This document shows positions 13,267 to 49,890 of a stretch of DNA of 64,000 bases, one piece after another. The notes below the pieces were generated by a model. That model did not search any database. It was not told where the DNA came from and was given only the letters and a program-made list of their open reading frames with translations. This DNA comes from Bacteroidota bacterium. GTDB lineage: Bacteria > Bacteroidota > Ignavibacteria > OLB7. The stretch covers positions 195,273 through 259,272 of the forward strand of contig JAFDZV010000004.1 of the NCBI GenBank assembly GCA_018266795.1. Direction: 5' to 3'. The position numbers and the translations under genes were made by a program. Position 1 is the stretch's first letter; every line of letters begins with the position of its first letter.

Positions 13267-14064
13267 CTACTCGTCCCCCTCGATCATCGGTGCGAAGTAA
13301 CGGGCGAAGAGCTCGGTGGCGCTTCGCGCGCCGGTTTTGCGATGGATCTTCTTCACATGCTTCTTGACGGTGTCGATGGAGATATAGAGGCGGCGCGCGA
13401 TCTCATCGTACTTGCGTCCGAAGACATGGAGCGTCAATACCTCCAGCTCACGACTGGTCATCCCGGTTTTCCGGGCGATCGCGTGAAGCACGTCGTGGAA
13501 CACACGCCCCACAGGACGGGCGGATGAATGACGTGCCACGAGATCGGTGAGCATGAAGGTGAGAAAGGTCTCCATGCCCTTCATCACCGAACGCGTCTCC
13601 TCGGACGTGAATCCCTTCTTGCGTTCGCGCAGCAGGGTGATCGTGCCGAGGTCGTCGCCCGCATGAAGGAAGTGGAACACCATCGGCTCATGGTAGTGGG
13701 CGTCGTCGAACGGCGGCCACGAGAGTATGTTGGGTCCGGGATGTGCATCCACATGGATATCACTCTGAGTGGCGCGCGACTTGCTTCCGCGACGCGGCGG
13801 AGTGTAGAGCCGGCAATTCAGATTTATTCTCACTGCAACCCGATCGACATCCGCGAAGAGCGCCGTCAACTCGTCCGTGAAGCGGCGGACCCACTCCATC
13901 GGGTCTCCGGTTAACGGAAGCGCGTTGAGGAAGCGGAGAAGTGAATCGGGAAGCAGCGTGATGGCATTCGGGTGACGGTCGCGATTCTGCGGTCCATGTG
14001 CATATGAACCGCTCGGATCGTCGTGTCCGTGCATGCCGGAGTTGTGCTTGCGATGACGCGGCAT
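13267..14064 (-). CDS. LuxR-type regulator, family member A
   Basis: A 265-residue protein. Residues 203-257 form a LuxR/GerE helix-turn-helix (SRELEVL, then YISIDTVKKHVKKIHRKTG). The first ~170 residues are not a receiver domain: there is no phospho-Asp pattern. They begin with a block, FLNALPLTGDPMEW (45-58) then DVDRVAVRINLNC (72-84), that recurs in two other regulators in this window at 46237-47142 and 47747-48625. A TITLLRER strand (141-148) followed by helices recalls GAF/PAS-type sensors, which is inference. It is convergent with the transglutaminase-like pair, which it might control. The start is uncertain within the His-rich N-terminus. Confidence 0.82.
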   Translation of the reverse strand: MPRHRKHNSGMHGHDDPSGSYAHGPQNRDRHPNAITLLPDSLLRFLNALPLTGDPMEWVRRFTDELTALFADVDRVAVRINLNCRLYTPPRRGSKSRATQSDIHVDAHPGPNILSWPPFDDAHYHEPMVFHFLHAGDDLGTITLLRERKKGFTSEETRSVMKGMETFLTFMLTDLVARHSSARPVGRVFHDVLHAIARKTGMTSRELEVLTLHVFGRKYDEIARRLYISIDTVKKHVKKIHRKTGARSATELFARYFAPMIEGDE

Positions 14065-14672
14065 AGAGTGGAACGCGTGAACAAACGCCGGAACCTCTCG
14101 AAGGTCCGATCAGATCACGGAATAGATGTAATAGCAGGCCGCGGATGCCAGCGGTGGCCAGTTCAATCGGTTGCTCACGGTGCCTTTATTGCAGGAGAGA
14201 CGGGGCCCGCATGTCACCCTTGGGGACTGCACATAATCAACGGACCACACTGATCAGAAGAGCTAGACTTCCGCTTGTTCGGGACCAGGAACCATTGCGC
14301 ATGAGGGATCGATGCGACACCCGTACCGGGCAAACAACTTCACATTTTCACCCCCTATCAAGAAAGTACCCTCACGGGTACTTTTTGGGCCGCGAGTTTC
14401 GAACAGTTCGTCAGTTCGTGTGTATGGTCGGGTAGTGGTGCAAGCCGCGGCGACGCCTGCATTGCATGCCGCGAGTGCAGTGTATACGGGGCATTGCGGC
14501 GTGCGGTGTGCCTGAGTGATTGCTGCCCGAATGCGTTGCGGGCACGGTGTTTGCGGCGCAGCGCAGGGCAAGCCGTTGGCAGCCGTGTTTGGATGCTCGG
14601 CGTGAATCACCGCCCGGCCCCGTGGCCGGCGTGCGTTCAGACGGTTCGGAACGCACGCGCCACAGCGGGTAT
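14065..14672. other. Intergenic, 608 bp, with one terminator
   Basis: Upstream region of regulator A and downstream region of the aminotransferase (both minus strand). It contains the hairpin at 14363-14386. No open frame has family-like features or a plausible start. Confidence 0.6.
14363..14386. terminator. Rho-independent terminator, possibly bidirectional
   Basis: 9-bp stem AAAGTACCC / GGGTACTTT, loop TCAC, continuing into TT on the plus strand (five T in all) and TTT then C on the minus strand. It probably ends minus-strand transcripts arriving from the aminotransferase gene 290 bp away. Confidence 0.6.
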
Positions 14673-43842: not shown

Positions 43843-44678
43843 CGTCCTCTTTACTTCCTCCACTGCGCTCTCCCTGTCACGGCGGAATTACACCTTTGTG
43901 TACTGGCGCTCCCGCCGCTCGTGGCCCCAAATTGCCGCCGCTTCGTTCAACACCCATCCACCCGTCATCGCCTCGAGCGGCGCCGCAGGCCGCAGCGCGG
44001 CGTGCGCGGGCCAGTGACATCGACCAGGGACAGGATGCGGCATGCTTCCCATGCGCCGCATGCGGGGCCGGTCCGTTTCAACCGTGGCAGGCAACGGGCC
44101 GGCCCCCTCCTCTGGAATGCCTGCAGTCCGTTGGTGTTGCTGGTTGAGATTGGCGTGTGGCCGCTGCGCACCGGGCCTGCGTGAACAGCCTCAGCCGATT
44201 ATGCCGCGAGGGTCACGCGGGCAATCGACGCCGGGCCGCGGCGCATTCTCTCTCGGCGTTTCGGCCCGGCGGTACGATTGTATTACGCCCGCTCCAGTGC
44301 ATCGATATGCAAACGAGGGGCATTGGGCCGATGAAGCATGAGGCGGTTCAACCTCCGGGCCGTTCTCCCTCGCGGGCGCATGCCGGCCCCAGGTGGTGAC
44401 GGCCGGCATGCCCCGTTGTATCCGGTGTCCGTGGCGATGGGGCGCACTCATTATACGTGTGCTGCAGACCGTGCACCGTTGAATACGAGCCGGAGTGATA
44501 CCGTAACACACACAATGCATAGGTCCGTTGCAAGCCATTCCGGTCTGTGCAGCGTAATGTCCAGCGAAATTCTCATGGGGCCACCAGGCCGGGAAGAATT
44601 GATCGACGGCACATGATCACAATCGTTGGCCTTTATGTGAGGGAAGTTATTACCCGATAACCATTTTGGAGGATCTTC

Positions 44679-45566
44679 ATGAAACGTATCCTGATTGCGG
44701 TAGTCTGCTTGTGCGCATTGACGCATGTCGCATGCGATCAGAATGGTGGTGGTACGGCAAGCCCGGAATCGCCTCATGGTGTGAACGGCAAAGGTGGGGG
44801 GGAGTTGTTGGACTTCAGTGCAACGATTTACGTAACGGATGCAGGCACCATGCATAATGATGGCATGGCGTATCTGTTAAGTACATTCCCGTTCGAGAGC
44901 ACATTCTCGAGCAACACCAAGAAAGCCGATGCAATGCTCGCGGATATCTGCGGCTACTTTCAACGTGTCGACGGTTGGGATTCCACAGAATTCCACACCA
45001 CCTATCTGAGGGATTCCATTGCAGCTATGTTCAATAGCAACTATCTTGCCGATCCACTCGCGTGGTGGGATCGCGTGCGGAACTCGAATCCGCTTCCAAA
45101 GGTTGCTTCCGCTGCAGACCTTGCATTTGTCGATAGTGTTCGCCAGATCTTTGGTAGCAATTATTCCAACATGACGAAGGCGCAGATCTGTGATCGCATT
45201 GCGTCCAGAGTGGATGCACTGATATTGCAGTACAATGCGGCAACGTGGCAGGTGCCGGCAGGCGGTGAATTGGCAGGCGGCCTGCTGTATCTCATGAAAG
45301 GTTCAACAAGCTATTGGAAGAGCCGGGATACGATGATAGCGGTTGGCAATCCTAACCCCGATGGAATTCAATACGGCATTGCTGCTGATTGCCTCGGGTA
45401 TATAACCGGATGGCTGTCAGCTGCTTGGGATGACTTCAATAGCTCAACGGGAATCAGGCCCGAAGGGCAGCGGCGAAGAATAGGCCAGGGGGTTATTTGG
45501 GGGCTCTCAGCGAGCGCCGCAGTATTCTTTGTTCACGCTCAACAGCTTGGTATAGACTACCACTGA
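44679..45566 (+). CDS. Lipoprotein of unknown function
   Basis: A 295-residue protein starting MKRILIAVVCLCAL with lipobox THVAC (acylated C19) and a Gly/Ser/Pro linker up to ~45. The rest is soluble, rich in aromatic residues and aspartate, with ADICGYFQRVDGWD and LADPLAWWDRVRN segments and a hydrophobic, small-residue tail (VIWGLSASAAVFFVHAQ). No family is recognised. A textbook GGAGG lies 7 nt before the ATG. Base composition is visibly less GC-rich than the flanking genes, and the next small membrane-protein gene shares this, which hints at transfer. The two may act together. Confidence 0.75.
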   Translation: MKRILIAVVCLCALTHVACDQNGGGTASPESPHGVNGKGGGELLDFSATIYVTDAGTMHNDGMAYLLSTFPFESTFSSNTKKADAMLADICGYFQRVDGWDSTEFHTTYLRDSIAAMFNSNYLADPLAWWDRVRNSNPLPKVASAADLAFVDSVRQIFGSNYSNMTKAQICDRIASRVDALILQYNAATWQVPAGGELAGGLLYLMKGSTSYWKSRDTMIAVGNPNPDGIQYGIAADCLGYITGWLSAAWDDFNSSTGIRPEGQRRRIGQGVIWGLSASAAVFFVHAQQLGIDYH

Positions 45567-45650
45567 ACGAGTCGCGACTTGATGGGGCAGGAAGCTGCGG
45601 CCTGCCCCATGGTCTCGTTGCTTTTGATTATCAATACCGCCAGGGATTAC

Positions 45651-46022
45651 ATGAATGCCATAACCATGAAGACCGTGCCCGCACTACGTAACGATATCCT
45701 ATGTACTTTGGTCGTTGCCATCTGTGGCATCGTCAACACAATTGCGGGCTATAACTCGGCTTCGTTCAACATCGGCCTGTTCTTTGGATTGTCGAGTTGG
45801 TTCCTTGTGAGATTTTTCTATCTCCGTCTTGTTGAAAAGAAGTCACCGGCAACAGATATCTATCCGGCGATCATGGGAACGGTGATTCCGGTTCTGACCA
45901 TCGGGATGATTCTCCTTGTTCGCGCGGGAGTGCTCGATTTCTGTTTCGCAATGTTCCTGAGCATCGCCTTTTACAATGGACTCTATCTCACCATGAGTAA
46001 TAAGTCTGTAGTTGATCAGTAA
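45651..46022 (+). CDS. Small membrane protein
   Basis: A 123-residue protein with four probable membrane helices (about 15-33, 38-56, 68-89, 95-113) and few charged residues. The start at 45651 has AGGG 6 nt upstream; a second ATG at 45666 would also serve. It lies 84 bp after the unrecognised lipoprotein on the same strand and shares its lower GC. No family is recognised. Confidence 0.6.
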   Translation: MNAITMKTVPALRNDILCTLVVAICGIVNTIAGYNSASFNIGLFFGLSSWFLVRFFYLRLVEKKSPATDIYPAIMGTVIPVLTIGMILLVRAGVLDFCFAMFLSIAFYNGLYLTMSNKSVVDQ

Positions 46023-46236: not shown

Positions 46237-47142
46237 ATGGGAACAGCTGGAGGAAAACGGAGGAAGACATCGCCACCATCCCGCGGGAAGGAGGGGGGTA
46301 CTGCGCGGTCACGTTCGAGACAGAATGCCGGTGCGGCGGCCGTTGTCGTTACTGAGCCGGAGGTGCAGACCGAACCGGCGGAGCCGTTGATCCCGCCGCA
46401 TGTTGCCCGCTTTCTGGCCTCGATCCCGATGACGCCGGATCCGGTGGAGTGGATTCTCGGCTTCCGCGCCGCGCTTCAGGAACTACTGGGGGATGTGGAC
46501 CGGATTGCGATGGAGGTGGATACGTATTGCCGGCTTGATGATATCCCTGTAGGGGCGGTATGGTTCCGGTTGCATCTGGATCATGCCGCTCATAGCGGCG
46601 GCGCCGGAATCATGATCACCCTGAGATCGAGCGACGAGCAAGAACATCATGCGCACTTGCTCATGCGGCTTCAACAGGCCGGGCACGACATCAGTTTGTA
46701 TCGGGCACCCATTGGGACAGACTATGCATTCAGGAATGCAGGGCATCTTGCCTCGATACTGCTGTTCAGAGAACGGCATCGGCCGGCGATAACCGCAGAG
46801 ACCCAGGCCGCGTTGGAGGCGCTGCGCCCGTTCATCGTATACGCCTGCTCCAGCCTCGTTGCGCGTCTCATGGTGGCACGACCGGCAAAGTACCTTGGCT
46901 CACGGATGTTGCTCCGCATAATCAACGACTATGGTCTCAGCGAGGGTGAGGAGCACGTGGTCGCGTTGAAGGCGTTTGGCCTGACGAATGCCGCAATTGC
47001 CGGCCGCCTCTATATCACATCACATGCCGTGAAGAAACGTCTGGAGAGCGTCCGGCGGAAGACCGGTGCGGCGAGCATCTTCGAGCTCTTCATGCGGTAT
47101 GCGCCGAAGGAAGGGGATGGGGAGGGAAGTGATGCGGTATGA
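46237..47142 (+). CDS. LuxR-type regulator, family member B
   Basis: A 301-residue protein. A basic Ser/Gly-rich leader (1-35) and a Pro/Glu linker precede the shared block FLASIPMTPDPVEWILGF and GDVDRIAMEVDTYC, matching members A and C. The middle has ILLFRERHRPAI followed by helices. The C-terminal ~55 residues are a LuxR/GerE helix-turn-helix (LTNAAIAGRLYITSHAVKKR, in part), with the usual glutamate-threonine region replaced by EGEEHVVALKAF. No receiver domain. The start at 46237 is preferred because GAGG sits 11 nt upstream; 46228 is possible. Confidence 0.8.
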   Translation: MGTAGGKRRKTSPPSRGKEGGTARSRSRQNAGAAAVVVTEPEVQTEPAEPLIPPHVARFLASIPMTPDPVEWILGFRAALQELLGDVDRIAMEVDTYCRLDDIPVGAVWFRLHLDHAAHSGGAGIMITLRSSDEQEHHAHLLMRLQQAGHDISLYRAPIGTDYAFRNAGHLASILLFRERHRPAITAETQAALEALRPFIVYACSSLVARLMVARPAKYLGSRMLLRIINDYGLSEGEEHVVALKAFGLTNAAIAGRLYITSHAVKKRLESVRRKTGAASIFELFMRYAPKEGDGEGSDAV

Positions 47143-47746
47143 GTGATGAGTTATGAGGGAGCCCCGACACTGATCATTGGAGGCACCCGGCATGCCCGTG
47201 CCCATGTTGGCACTTGATCACATGCGTGCCGGGCAGGACACCGGGCTCTCCGGCCGGAGCAGGGGGGAGGTACGAAGGGCGAAACGGACGGGAAACCGGC
47301 GGCAGGAGCCGGGGCGATCGGCACCGCAAACTATTCGGTGGCCTGCAACGTTATGGTGGGATGCAGGTCCATATTGGGCTGCCCTCAGACCGGACCGGGC
47401 CACAACGGATTGATAACTCTTCACACCCGGAAAGTTTGGTTGGAGTGGCCGATCTTCGTAACATTGACGGCGTTTGGCGCCATTCGACTCTTGCGGCTTC
47501 GTATGGCACCCGGCCGGAACTTCCCTGGCAGCTTCGGAACAGTACTCTCACACGTTTGCCGTTCCCTCGGCAGTTGTTCCGTAGTTGCTGGCCGTCGCGC
47601 ATAGCTCTCCCCACCTGCACATTCTGAATACCGTGCGGGCACCCGCGTCTGCGGCGCGCGTGCCATGATACTTGCATGCGCCACTAACACCAGTGGCGGG
47701 CGTCGCCATTGGCGTGGCCCGTTCCGTCCATGAGGTAAAGAGTTCT

Positions 47747-48625
47747 ATGCCACGAATCATTCGAAAGACTGCCGAAGGCGATATCGCCGAACTTCCGGAG
47801 CGTCCCGCAGCCGTGCGCATGAATCCCGGCCTGTCCGGTGCATCATCCGGCGCGCCGCTACTGCCCGATCATGTGGTGGAGTTCCTCAACGCTCTGCCGA
47901 TGACCGGCAACACCGTGGACTGGATCAACGGATTCCGCGAGGCACTTCGAAAGCTGCTTGGAGATGTGGACAGGGTTGCGATCCGGGTGAACGCGAATTG
48001 CAATCTCTCCAACCCCCAGGAATACAGGCCGACCCATGAGGTTGCCCAACTTGTGTCGAACGCGAAGAAGGGGGACGAGCTGACCACGCTTACCTCGTAT
48101 GCGATGGCTGGCGAAACCCCTGCCCAGACATTCATCGCGGAGTTATGCTCCGCGGGACATACGCTGAATGAGTACCACCCGCCCTTGTGCCATGACTATT
48201 ACTACGGCGGTACAGCATATATCGGGACCATACTCCTCTTCCGGGAGCGCGTGAAGACTCCGATCTCCGAGCGAACCATCGAGGCAATGGCCATGCTCGA
48301 GCCCTTCATCATCTTTACGTTTTCGGATGTCATTACGCGACACTTCTACGAGCGGCCGATTGATCGAGTGTTCGGCGAGATTCTCAGGGAGGTTGCCCGC
48401 GAGTCCAATCTTTCAACACAGGACATACGAATCCTGACCTTGATGCTGATGGGCCTCTCCTACAAGCAGGTGGCGGACCGGATGGAACTCTCGATCGACA
48501 CCATTCGCAAGCATACGAAACGCATCTACCGGAAGACCCGGACCGGAAGTCTTCCGGAACTCTTCGCCAAGTACTTCACGCCGCGCATCGGCATCGAGGG
48601 GCTGGGCGAGGACGACAGCCTGTAG
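47747..48625 (+). CDS. LuxR-type regulator, family member C
   Basis: A 292-residue protein with the same plan as A and B: FLNALPMTGNTVDWINGF and GDVDRVAIRVNANC near residues 47-85, then GTILLFRERVKTPIS in the middle, and a LuxR helix-turn-helix at the C-terminus (SYKQVADRMELSIDTIRKH, then RIYRKTRTGS). Over the N-terminal block it is closer to A than to B. It starts at MPRIIRKT with GAGG 11 nt upstream, 604 bp after member B on the same strand. The ligand or partner of the N-terminal domain is unknown. Confidence 0.82.
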   Translation: MPRIIRKTAEGDIAELPERPAAVRMNPGLSGASSGAPLLPDHVVEFLNALPMTGNTVDWINGFREALRKLLGDVDRVAIRVNANCNLSNPQEYRPTHEVAQLVSNAKKGDELTTLTSYAMAGETPAQTFIAELCSAGHTLNEYHPPLCHDYYYGGTAYIGTILLFRERVKTPISERTIEAMAMLEPFIIFTFSDVITRHFYERPIDRVFGEILREVARESNLSTQDIRILTLMLMGLSYKQVADRMELSIDTIRKHTKRIYRKTRTGSLPELFAKYFTPRIGIEGLGEDDSL

Positions 48626-49278
48626 AGCCCTGGTGCAGTTGCGGCAACCACGGCTCCGCAGTGCGGACGTGACATCCCAACGACTCATTCATAATTTCTG
48701 CGGTGTTGACAGGTGTGCCTATCACACAACCGGGGGCCGCGCCGTTCGTGCACGTTTTGGCGCGTGCAGTGAATGCGCCGGCCCCATCGATGCTCGGCAC
48801 AGGGCGGCCCCGTGAGTCCCGGGCATCGGCCACGTTAACTCTACGCAATGTTGCCTCGCGAGTACGGCCATTTGCCATGAACGGGGACATTGAGGCAACA
48901 CGGTACACAAACATGTACTGTTCCCCCGGTACATCGAACGCGTATGTTTGATGGCCGTGTTATATCCGTACGTACAACGCCGGCCTTCCTGACCCCTGAC
49001 ACCCTTGCGGCGTGTCGGAAGTCTGTCCTGGTAGCGGATATGGTTTGAACGAGTGGTACTGCGGGCCGTTGCGTCTAGCCACGGTGCCGTTGCATGGGCC
49101 CCGCACCATCTATGATGGTGCCCATGCCGGTCACAATGCTGATACATCCCTAGGGCGTGCGTCCAGAGCCACGTCTTCAACCAGCAGGCACGATTCGCCG
49201 CCATATCCCTGTTTCGGACAACCGCGGTGGATCGTTGTCTCCAATCCCAGAACAACTCGAATCCAGAGAGAGAATCGT
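48626..49278. other. Intergenic, 653 bp
   Basis: No credible gene, terminator or repeat found on either strand. The stretch is compositionally mixed and lacks the strong GC third-position bias of neighbouring genes. The promoter of the cysteine-rich protein gene should be at the right end. Confidence 0.5.
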
Positions 49279-49890
49279 ATGCGATGTCATCTTACCACTA
49301 CACTGTTCTGCCTGCTGTTCGCGATTACCGCCGCGCAGTCGCAGAACACATCAGCAACTCACCCGAACGATCCCGATGCCAAGTTGATCGGCAGGTATTC
49401 GGTGCATGTCGAGACTCCACATATCTCATCGGAAAAGCAGCCCACAGTATCAACGGATCACGATCTATCGCTGGTGATTGCTGTGTTCCGTGTTGGAATC
49501 CGAACGGACGTCTACGTGAACGTTGACTCCATCACATTCACAAAGGACGATGGCTGGGACAACATGAGCACGAGGGAGATCTTCGACCTGATTGGCCAGG
49601 TCGCGGTCTCGGAGTCGTTGCAGAAGGGGCTTCTGAATTGCGTTGCAAGCTGCCTGCTTGCGCAGCCGCTCACGCGCGTGATCGTTCCGGCCTGCGTGCA
49701 TCGCGACGGCAAGGGGATCGAGACCCACTTCACGGCCTGCGACGAGACGAGCATCTGCATTCGCGAGTACATCGTCTGCTGCCCGGTGGGGGCATTGTTC
49801 CCCACGATTCAGATGACGCTCTGCAGCATCGTGAACGGCATTGCCGGCGGATGCAACGCCGACGGCACCGGGTGCGAGAGCACCTGCTAG
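49279..49890 (+). CDS. Cysteine-rich secreted protein
   Basis: A 203-residue protein with a signal peptide (MRCHLTTTLFCLLFAITAAQ, cleavage after SQ). The N-terminal half of the mature chain is beta-rich; the C-terminal ~85 residues contain 11 cysteines, including an adjacent pair (IVCCPVG) and a C-x6-C-x4-C end (GGCNADGTGCESTC). Such density suggests disulfides outside the cytoplasm. The sequence DGWDNMSTREIFDLIGQVA precedes the cysteine region. No family is recognised. The gene lies between the LuxR pair and an outer-membrane protein gene, all on the plus strand. Confidence 0.7.
   Translation: MRCHLTTTLFCLLFAITAAQSQNTSATHPNDPDAKLIGRYSVHVETPHISSEKQPTVSTDHDLSLVIAVFRVGIRTDVYVNVDSITFTKDDGWDNMSTREIFDLIGQVAVSESLQKGLLNCVASCLLAQPLTRVIVPACVHRDGKGIETHFTACDETSICIREYIVCCPVGALFPTIQMTLCSIVNGIAGGCNADGTGCESTC

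Follow-up and report, generated by a model that had tools for sequence, protein, structure and literature searches.

The window, by which we mean the whole stretch of 64,000 nucleotides that was analyzed, contains three members (regulators A, B and C; Table 1) of a lineage-specific family that are probably one-component GAF-LuxR activators, most of which would drive the adjacent gene for an exported protein. This reading is built on computational results: sequence homology, a predicted fold, linkage of the genes, sites that recur and the spacing of promoter boxes. Regulator C fits the model fully: it comes with a predicted operator, a -7 box and an exported partner.

Table 1. Coordinates in the window of the three regulators and of associated features.
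Feature	Position	Strand	Remarks
Regulator A, paralogue	13267..14064	minus	265-aa ORF, open throughout
Dyad AAAGTACCC-N4-GGGTACTTT	14363..14384	minus	perfect 9-bp inverted repeat, ~300 bp upstream of A, unique in genome
Regulator B, paralogue	46237..47142	plus	301-aa ORF, open throughout
Regulator C	47747..48625	plus	292-aa ORF, open throughout
C, disordered N-terminus		plus	
C, predicted GAF-fold domain	47855-48406	plus	
C, LuxR/GerE HTH	48407-48622	plus	
Operator-like dyad GTACA-CAAACA-TGTAC	48903..48918	plus	putative operator; recurs in genome
Candidate -7 box TATGTTTG	48943..48950	plus	37 bp after start of conserved 16-bp site
Partner of C, exported Cys-rich protein	49279..49890	plus	203 aa, signal peptide, 13 Cys

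An earlier, sequence-only reading had described an N-terminal pattern shared by A, B and C, and we found this pattern to be real: it reads FLNALPLTGDPMEW in A, FLASIPMTPDPVEW in B and FLNALPMTGNTVDW in C, and is followed by DVDRVA (A and C) or DVDRIA (B) and then by a cysteine. A strand block (LLRER in A, LLFRER in B and C) precedes the LuxR helix-turn-helix (HTH). Pairwise BLASTP comparisons of the three proteins gave E-values of 1e-36 to 1e-55 over ~250 residues, with 32-36% identity, which indicates homology rather than chance resemblance; the homology of the three extends over their full length. All three do have the cysteine that had been called conserved, but only about 15 of the 22 family members overall share it. 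When A, B and C were compared with Pfam and NCBIfam, the GerE-type HTH alone was recognized. It scored 40.2 bits in A and 37.1 in C, above the Pfam cut-off of 23.5, as expected of the LuxR/GerE HTH superfamily; in B it fell below the cut-off (19.7), yet the homology of B to A and C covers the whole protein. The reported absence of a receiver domain held up as well, as no receiver profile matched A, B, C or any of 21 members. The family does not match the NarL/FixJ response regulators, as the N-terminal region lacks a receiver and has a predicted GAF fold instead.

In none of the 21 members did the ~180 N-terminal residues match a Pfam profile significantly, and the Pfam GAF profile failed to match any of them at E-values up to 10. 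An AlphaFold model built on a shallow alignment (the 21 sequences) reached a pLDDT of 80 for C and 83 for the N-domain alone, and the predicted N-domain has the helix-strand order of a GAF domain. Its best match among solved structures (VIA) was the GAF domain of 4mcw (Z 9.1, rmsd 4.6, 132 residues aligned); that of 3ci6 also matched (Z 8.1, rmsd 3.4, 123 aligned). The structural matches listed were almost all of GAF type (4mcw, PDE6, PDE2A, 3ci6, phytochromes, KdpD, CodY and VqsR), and Foldseek alone returned the same top matches for the N-domain with weak E-values. A PDB sequence search with the N-domain, the HTH module and the partner protein yielded nothing convincing. We conclude from the predicted model that the N-terminal region is a new sequence family of the known GAF sensor fold. 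Structure prediction for a GAF or PAS fold, proposed in the sequence-only reading, thus came out in favor of GAF and of a sensor-type N-terminus, and against that reading's notion of an undescribed domain, even though the region has no Pfam profile.

The family is larger than the window suggests. A search of its own genome (5.97 Mb, 71 contigs) returned about ten family genes, of which the window holds three; in the search output A appears as two rows. Fragments at the end of contig C30 and the start of C15 are probably one gene, because each matches a different part of the same sister-genome gene. Seven further members were found in a genome of the same genus and one and three in two genomes of another genus of the taxonomic family, and we saw 22 members in all. 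The three paralogs originally noted are therefore homologous as claimed, but belong to a larger set. No regulator was found in a third genus of the taxonomic family, and the N-terminal profile matched none of 394 other genomes of the phylum. Among ~386 genomes of the class outside the family, it found one clear member, in genome G449, which is 7% contaminated; this lone member (34% identity to C) reflects either transfer or contamination. It lies at L134 8134-8901, with the gene for an 837-aa exported protein 80 bp after it. With the full-length profile, the matches listed outside the own genome across the phylum reached the HTH region alone, PHROGs gave an HTH match alone, and viral contigs yielded no relative. 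In a scan of genome contigs, the best longer match (L063) proved to be an ordinary response regulator, the rest being HTH-only. A range of one taxonomic family plus one outlier genome bears out the suggestion of a lineage-specific family, and our literature search found no paper on this combination.

Ten of the 22 members carry an extra ~160 N-terminal residues in the alignment, and an eleventh is truncated by a contig end. The carriers include L042, L043, L044, L050, L053, L054, L057, L058 and L059; A, B and C are without this module. It matches Pfam HTH_23/28/29/32/33 and, in 10 of 10 carriers, the IS630 transposase model NF033545 (best E-value 2.4e-14). In the member shown, the match covers positions 2-112 of 299, the N-terminal DNA-binding half; no DDE catalytic domain was found, and the HTH part leads directly into the GAF-LuxR region. 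The partner gene described below is present next to all 10 module-bearing members.

A survey of neighboring genes revealed that 15 of the 22 regulators are directly followed, on the same strand, by a gene for a member of one exported-protein family; C is among the 15, whereas A and B are not. These partner proteins have a signal peptide and ~170-230 aa, usually with 10-16 cysteines and an end like GCESTCP; four members contain only 2-3 cysteines. No member gave a significant Pfam or NCBIfam match or contained a type IX secretion system (T9SS) C-terminal sorting domain. We located the partner genes by running a profile against all stop-to-stop frames, many of them having been overlooked by automatic gene calling. 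Across the four regulator-bearing genomes the profile gave 16 strong matches, of which 15 adjoin a regulator and the remaining one is at the end of a contig; it gave none in the genome of the taxonomic family that lacks regulators. Seven of the 22 regulators have no partner gene (L046, L052, L047, L055, A, B and the G449 member); L047 and L055 adjoin homologous exported proteins of ~600 aa (QRWEDVFGG/QWQSTFGGS). In L045, L054 and L058, the partner is followed by a third gene, whose small product has a T9SS sorting domain. The surroundings of the orthologous cassettes L042/L053 and L044/L054 are syntenic in two genomes, which argues against recent spread as mobile units. In the wider class, one weak, partial partner relative, likewise Cys-rich, was seen in a different taxonomic family, at the start of G610 contig 41 (L205 1-525; E 1.4e-5); an exported protein comes next, and the contig start leaves no view of the preceding gene. 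Two further matches there were marginal and partial (E ~9e-4).

The gaps between regulator and partner genes, which measure 128-751 bp, contain a recurring motif. Over all 15 gaps it scored 245.9 bits, a value inflated by orthologous pairs; dinucleotide shuffles reached 190.0 +/- 3.9. When each orthologous group was represented by a single sequence, it scored 141.8, as compared with 127.2 +/- 7.2 (maximum 150.3) for other intergenic regions. Motif strength by itself is thus modestly above the control and not decisive, and the argument for operators is carried by three other observations: the spacing of the -7 box, the confinement of CAAAAGTGTANTTG and the recurrence of the C-type site. The consensus of the Bacteroidota-type -7 box is TAnnTTTG (PMC9723704, PMC7366714); a match to at least five of its six letters, which played no part in finding the motif, was present 36-37 bp past the motif start at most of 12 sites. 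The form CAAAAGTGTANTTG occurs five times in two whole genomes, G000 (that of the window) and G001 (the sister genome), each time in a regulator-partner gap, while the reversed-pattern control gave none; in the window, it has one two-mismatch match, at 43885, in line with chance expectation. Several sites are inverted repeats, such as CTACAC-AAAA-GTGTAG and the C site. The sites of L054 and of the C25 (L044) group are poor matches to the motif, and a strict dyad-plus-box scan of regulator flanks returned one match, not of the family type. A second site, CTACACAAATGTGTAG, is common to L045 and L051, downstream of the partner gene and with a -7 box. The second dyad of L045 lies at ~1997-2015, before the third gene (for the small T9SS-sorted protein), and that of L051 is at the orthologous position.

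Could these sites belong to another factor, such as a global regulator or alternative sigma factor, with regulator and partner merely co-inherited neighbors? The sites do lie outside the regulator gene, regulator binding to them is our own inference, and the paralog-only motif is of modest strength. On the other hand, which variant of the site is present depends on the orthologous group to which the adjoining regulator belongs, and the CAAAAGTGTANTTG form is found nowhere else in two whole genomes, whereas a global factor would have one widespread type. We therefore regard this explanation as unlikely.

With at most one mismatch allowed, G000 has seven copies of the C-type site, CACAAACATGTACTGT, and G001 has two, as compared with none for the control. 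Both G001 sites sit in the gap of C's orthologue. The six other G000 sites lie between called genes, and at least five of the six precede genes for exported proteins or sigma factors; the gene calls around these sites are rough. A full -7 box follows at 36-37 bp in three of them and a box one base shorter in one. Downstream on the same strand, the first site has the gene for a T9SS protein of 1219 aa; the second has genes for a 218-aa protein and for an FG-GAP/UnbV protein of 660 aa; the third, for an ECF-like sigma factor and for a probable lipoprotein of 228 aa; the fourth, for an FG-GAP protein of 507 aa whose T9SS sorting domain is weak; and the fifth, for another ECF-like sigma factor and for a T9SS protein of 573 aa. 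The sixth site (at C10) has no clear near target. The T9SS sorting domains, together with the -7 box, suggest that the genome is of Bacteroidota or a close relative of that phylum. In the window itself, C and its partner are separated by 653 bp, and the proposed promoter would leave a leader of ~320 bases.

For C and most paralogs, the conserved downstream gene and the promoter-placed, operator-like sites support the claim of the sequence-only reading that these regulators would control exported or surface proteins. Taken regulator by regulator, the claim is supported for C, unproven for B and weakened for A. A and the adjacent transglutaminase-like pair run toward each other, their stop codons 95 bp apart, and the profile match of the one neighbor tested (E 0.0012) did not reach the cut-off; A has no partner gene, and no family-type site was found at its neighbors. 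The perfect repeat upstream of A could serve either as an operator or as a terminator. Regulator B, which is on a long branch, precedes C by 605 bp; neither a partner gene nor a family-type site was found for it, and it may be degenerating or acting elsewhere. Upstream of B, positions 44679-46022 contain lipoprotein-like and membrane-protein ORFs and have a lower GC content (0.575).

From these data we infer DNA binding, dimerization, a sensed signal, and activation rather than repression. In the proposed mechanism, the GAF-fold domain would sense a cytoplasmic signal, and the C-terminal LuxR-type HTH, probably as a dimer, would bind the roughly dyad site. The bound site would be centered ~31 bp upstream of the -7 box (~-43 from the transcription start), beside the -33 region, and the bound regulator would activate the promoter of the following gene, that for the exported, mostly Cys-rich protein. 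Such a site position is that of an activator, although repression is also possible. Each orthologous pair has its own version of the site, such that the regulators look insulated from one another. The C regulon would comprise about seven promoters, mostly before genes for exported proteins, those of the T9SS included, and for ECF-like sigma factors. Half of the family members bring a further N-terminal DNA-binding module, related to the DNA-binding half of IS630 transposases.

PlcR-PapR is a regulator-plus-exported-peptide pair and a model for a self-signaling cassette. By analogy, each regulator could sense its own exported partner, or part of that protein, as the signal. The one-to-one adjacency of regulator and partner, the several parallel cassettes per genome and the faster divergence of the partner (39% identity between C's partner and its orthologous counterpart, 56% between the regulators) are consistent with this idea. 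However, the partner is an exported, mostly Cys-rich protein of ~190 aa rather than a short peptide, and the GAF domain is cytoplasmic. Moreover, regulator and partner distances correlate over all 15 pairs, which include orthologous ones (r 0.36, p 0.008), whereas the correlation is absent when non-orthologous pairs are compared (r -0.07); the distances thus give no sign that the proteins co-evolved other than through common descent. We consider self-signaling improbable, and give the same low weight to an extended version in which several insulated, co-diverged cassettes, about half with the IS630 DNA-binding module, form parallel private channels through feedback by the exported protein. Least probable are quorum-sensing receptors of the LuxR type, with acyl-homoserine lactones or similar small, diffusible molecules as their signals: TraR, QscR, SdiA and RhlR were among the Foldseek matches to full-length C, and the autoinducer-binding domain is GAF-like, but the Autoind_bind profile matched none of the 21 members and the N-domain alone structurally favors ordinary GAF domains.

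The GAF-LuxR activator reading turns an uncharacterized paralogous family into a testable regulatory system, with the sensor type, predicted operators, promoters and targets named, and its matched sets of paralogous regulators and sites lend themselves to studying how duplicated regulators diverge in DNA-binding specificity. Among known systems, EpsA (TIGR03020), the XrtB/PEP-CTERM regulator, is weakly similar around the last sensor helix and HTH, with scores (31.5, 16.3 and 16.8 bits) well below the cut-off of 170. IS630 family transposases share the N-terminal ~110-residue DNA-binding half with the module carriers; here, in contrast, the catalytic part is missing and the module is fused to a GAF-LuxR protein, a possible case of bacterial transposase domestication as a transcription factor. 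Known GAF domains (PDE, phytochrome, KdpD and the HD-GYP protein 4mcw) resemble the sensor in predicted fold and topology but not detectably in sequence, the family having its own conserved YHPP and AYLGTIxLWRER. Autoinducer-binding LuxR proteins (TraR, SdiA and QscR) likewise place a GAF-like sensor before a GerE HTH and match in overall structure, but the family described here does not match their Autoind_bind profile. The one-component 'LuxR solos' of the LuxR/FixJ (GerE) type also combine a sensor and a C-terminal GerE HTH in one protein, with no receiver. Unlike these, the present family has a sensor without a Pfam or NCBIfam model, a second, transposase-related DNA-binding module in half of its members, and a dedicated exported partner gene.
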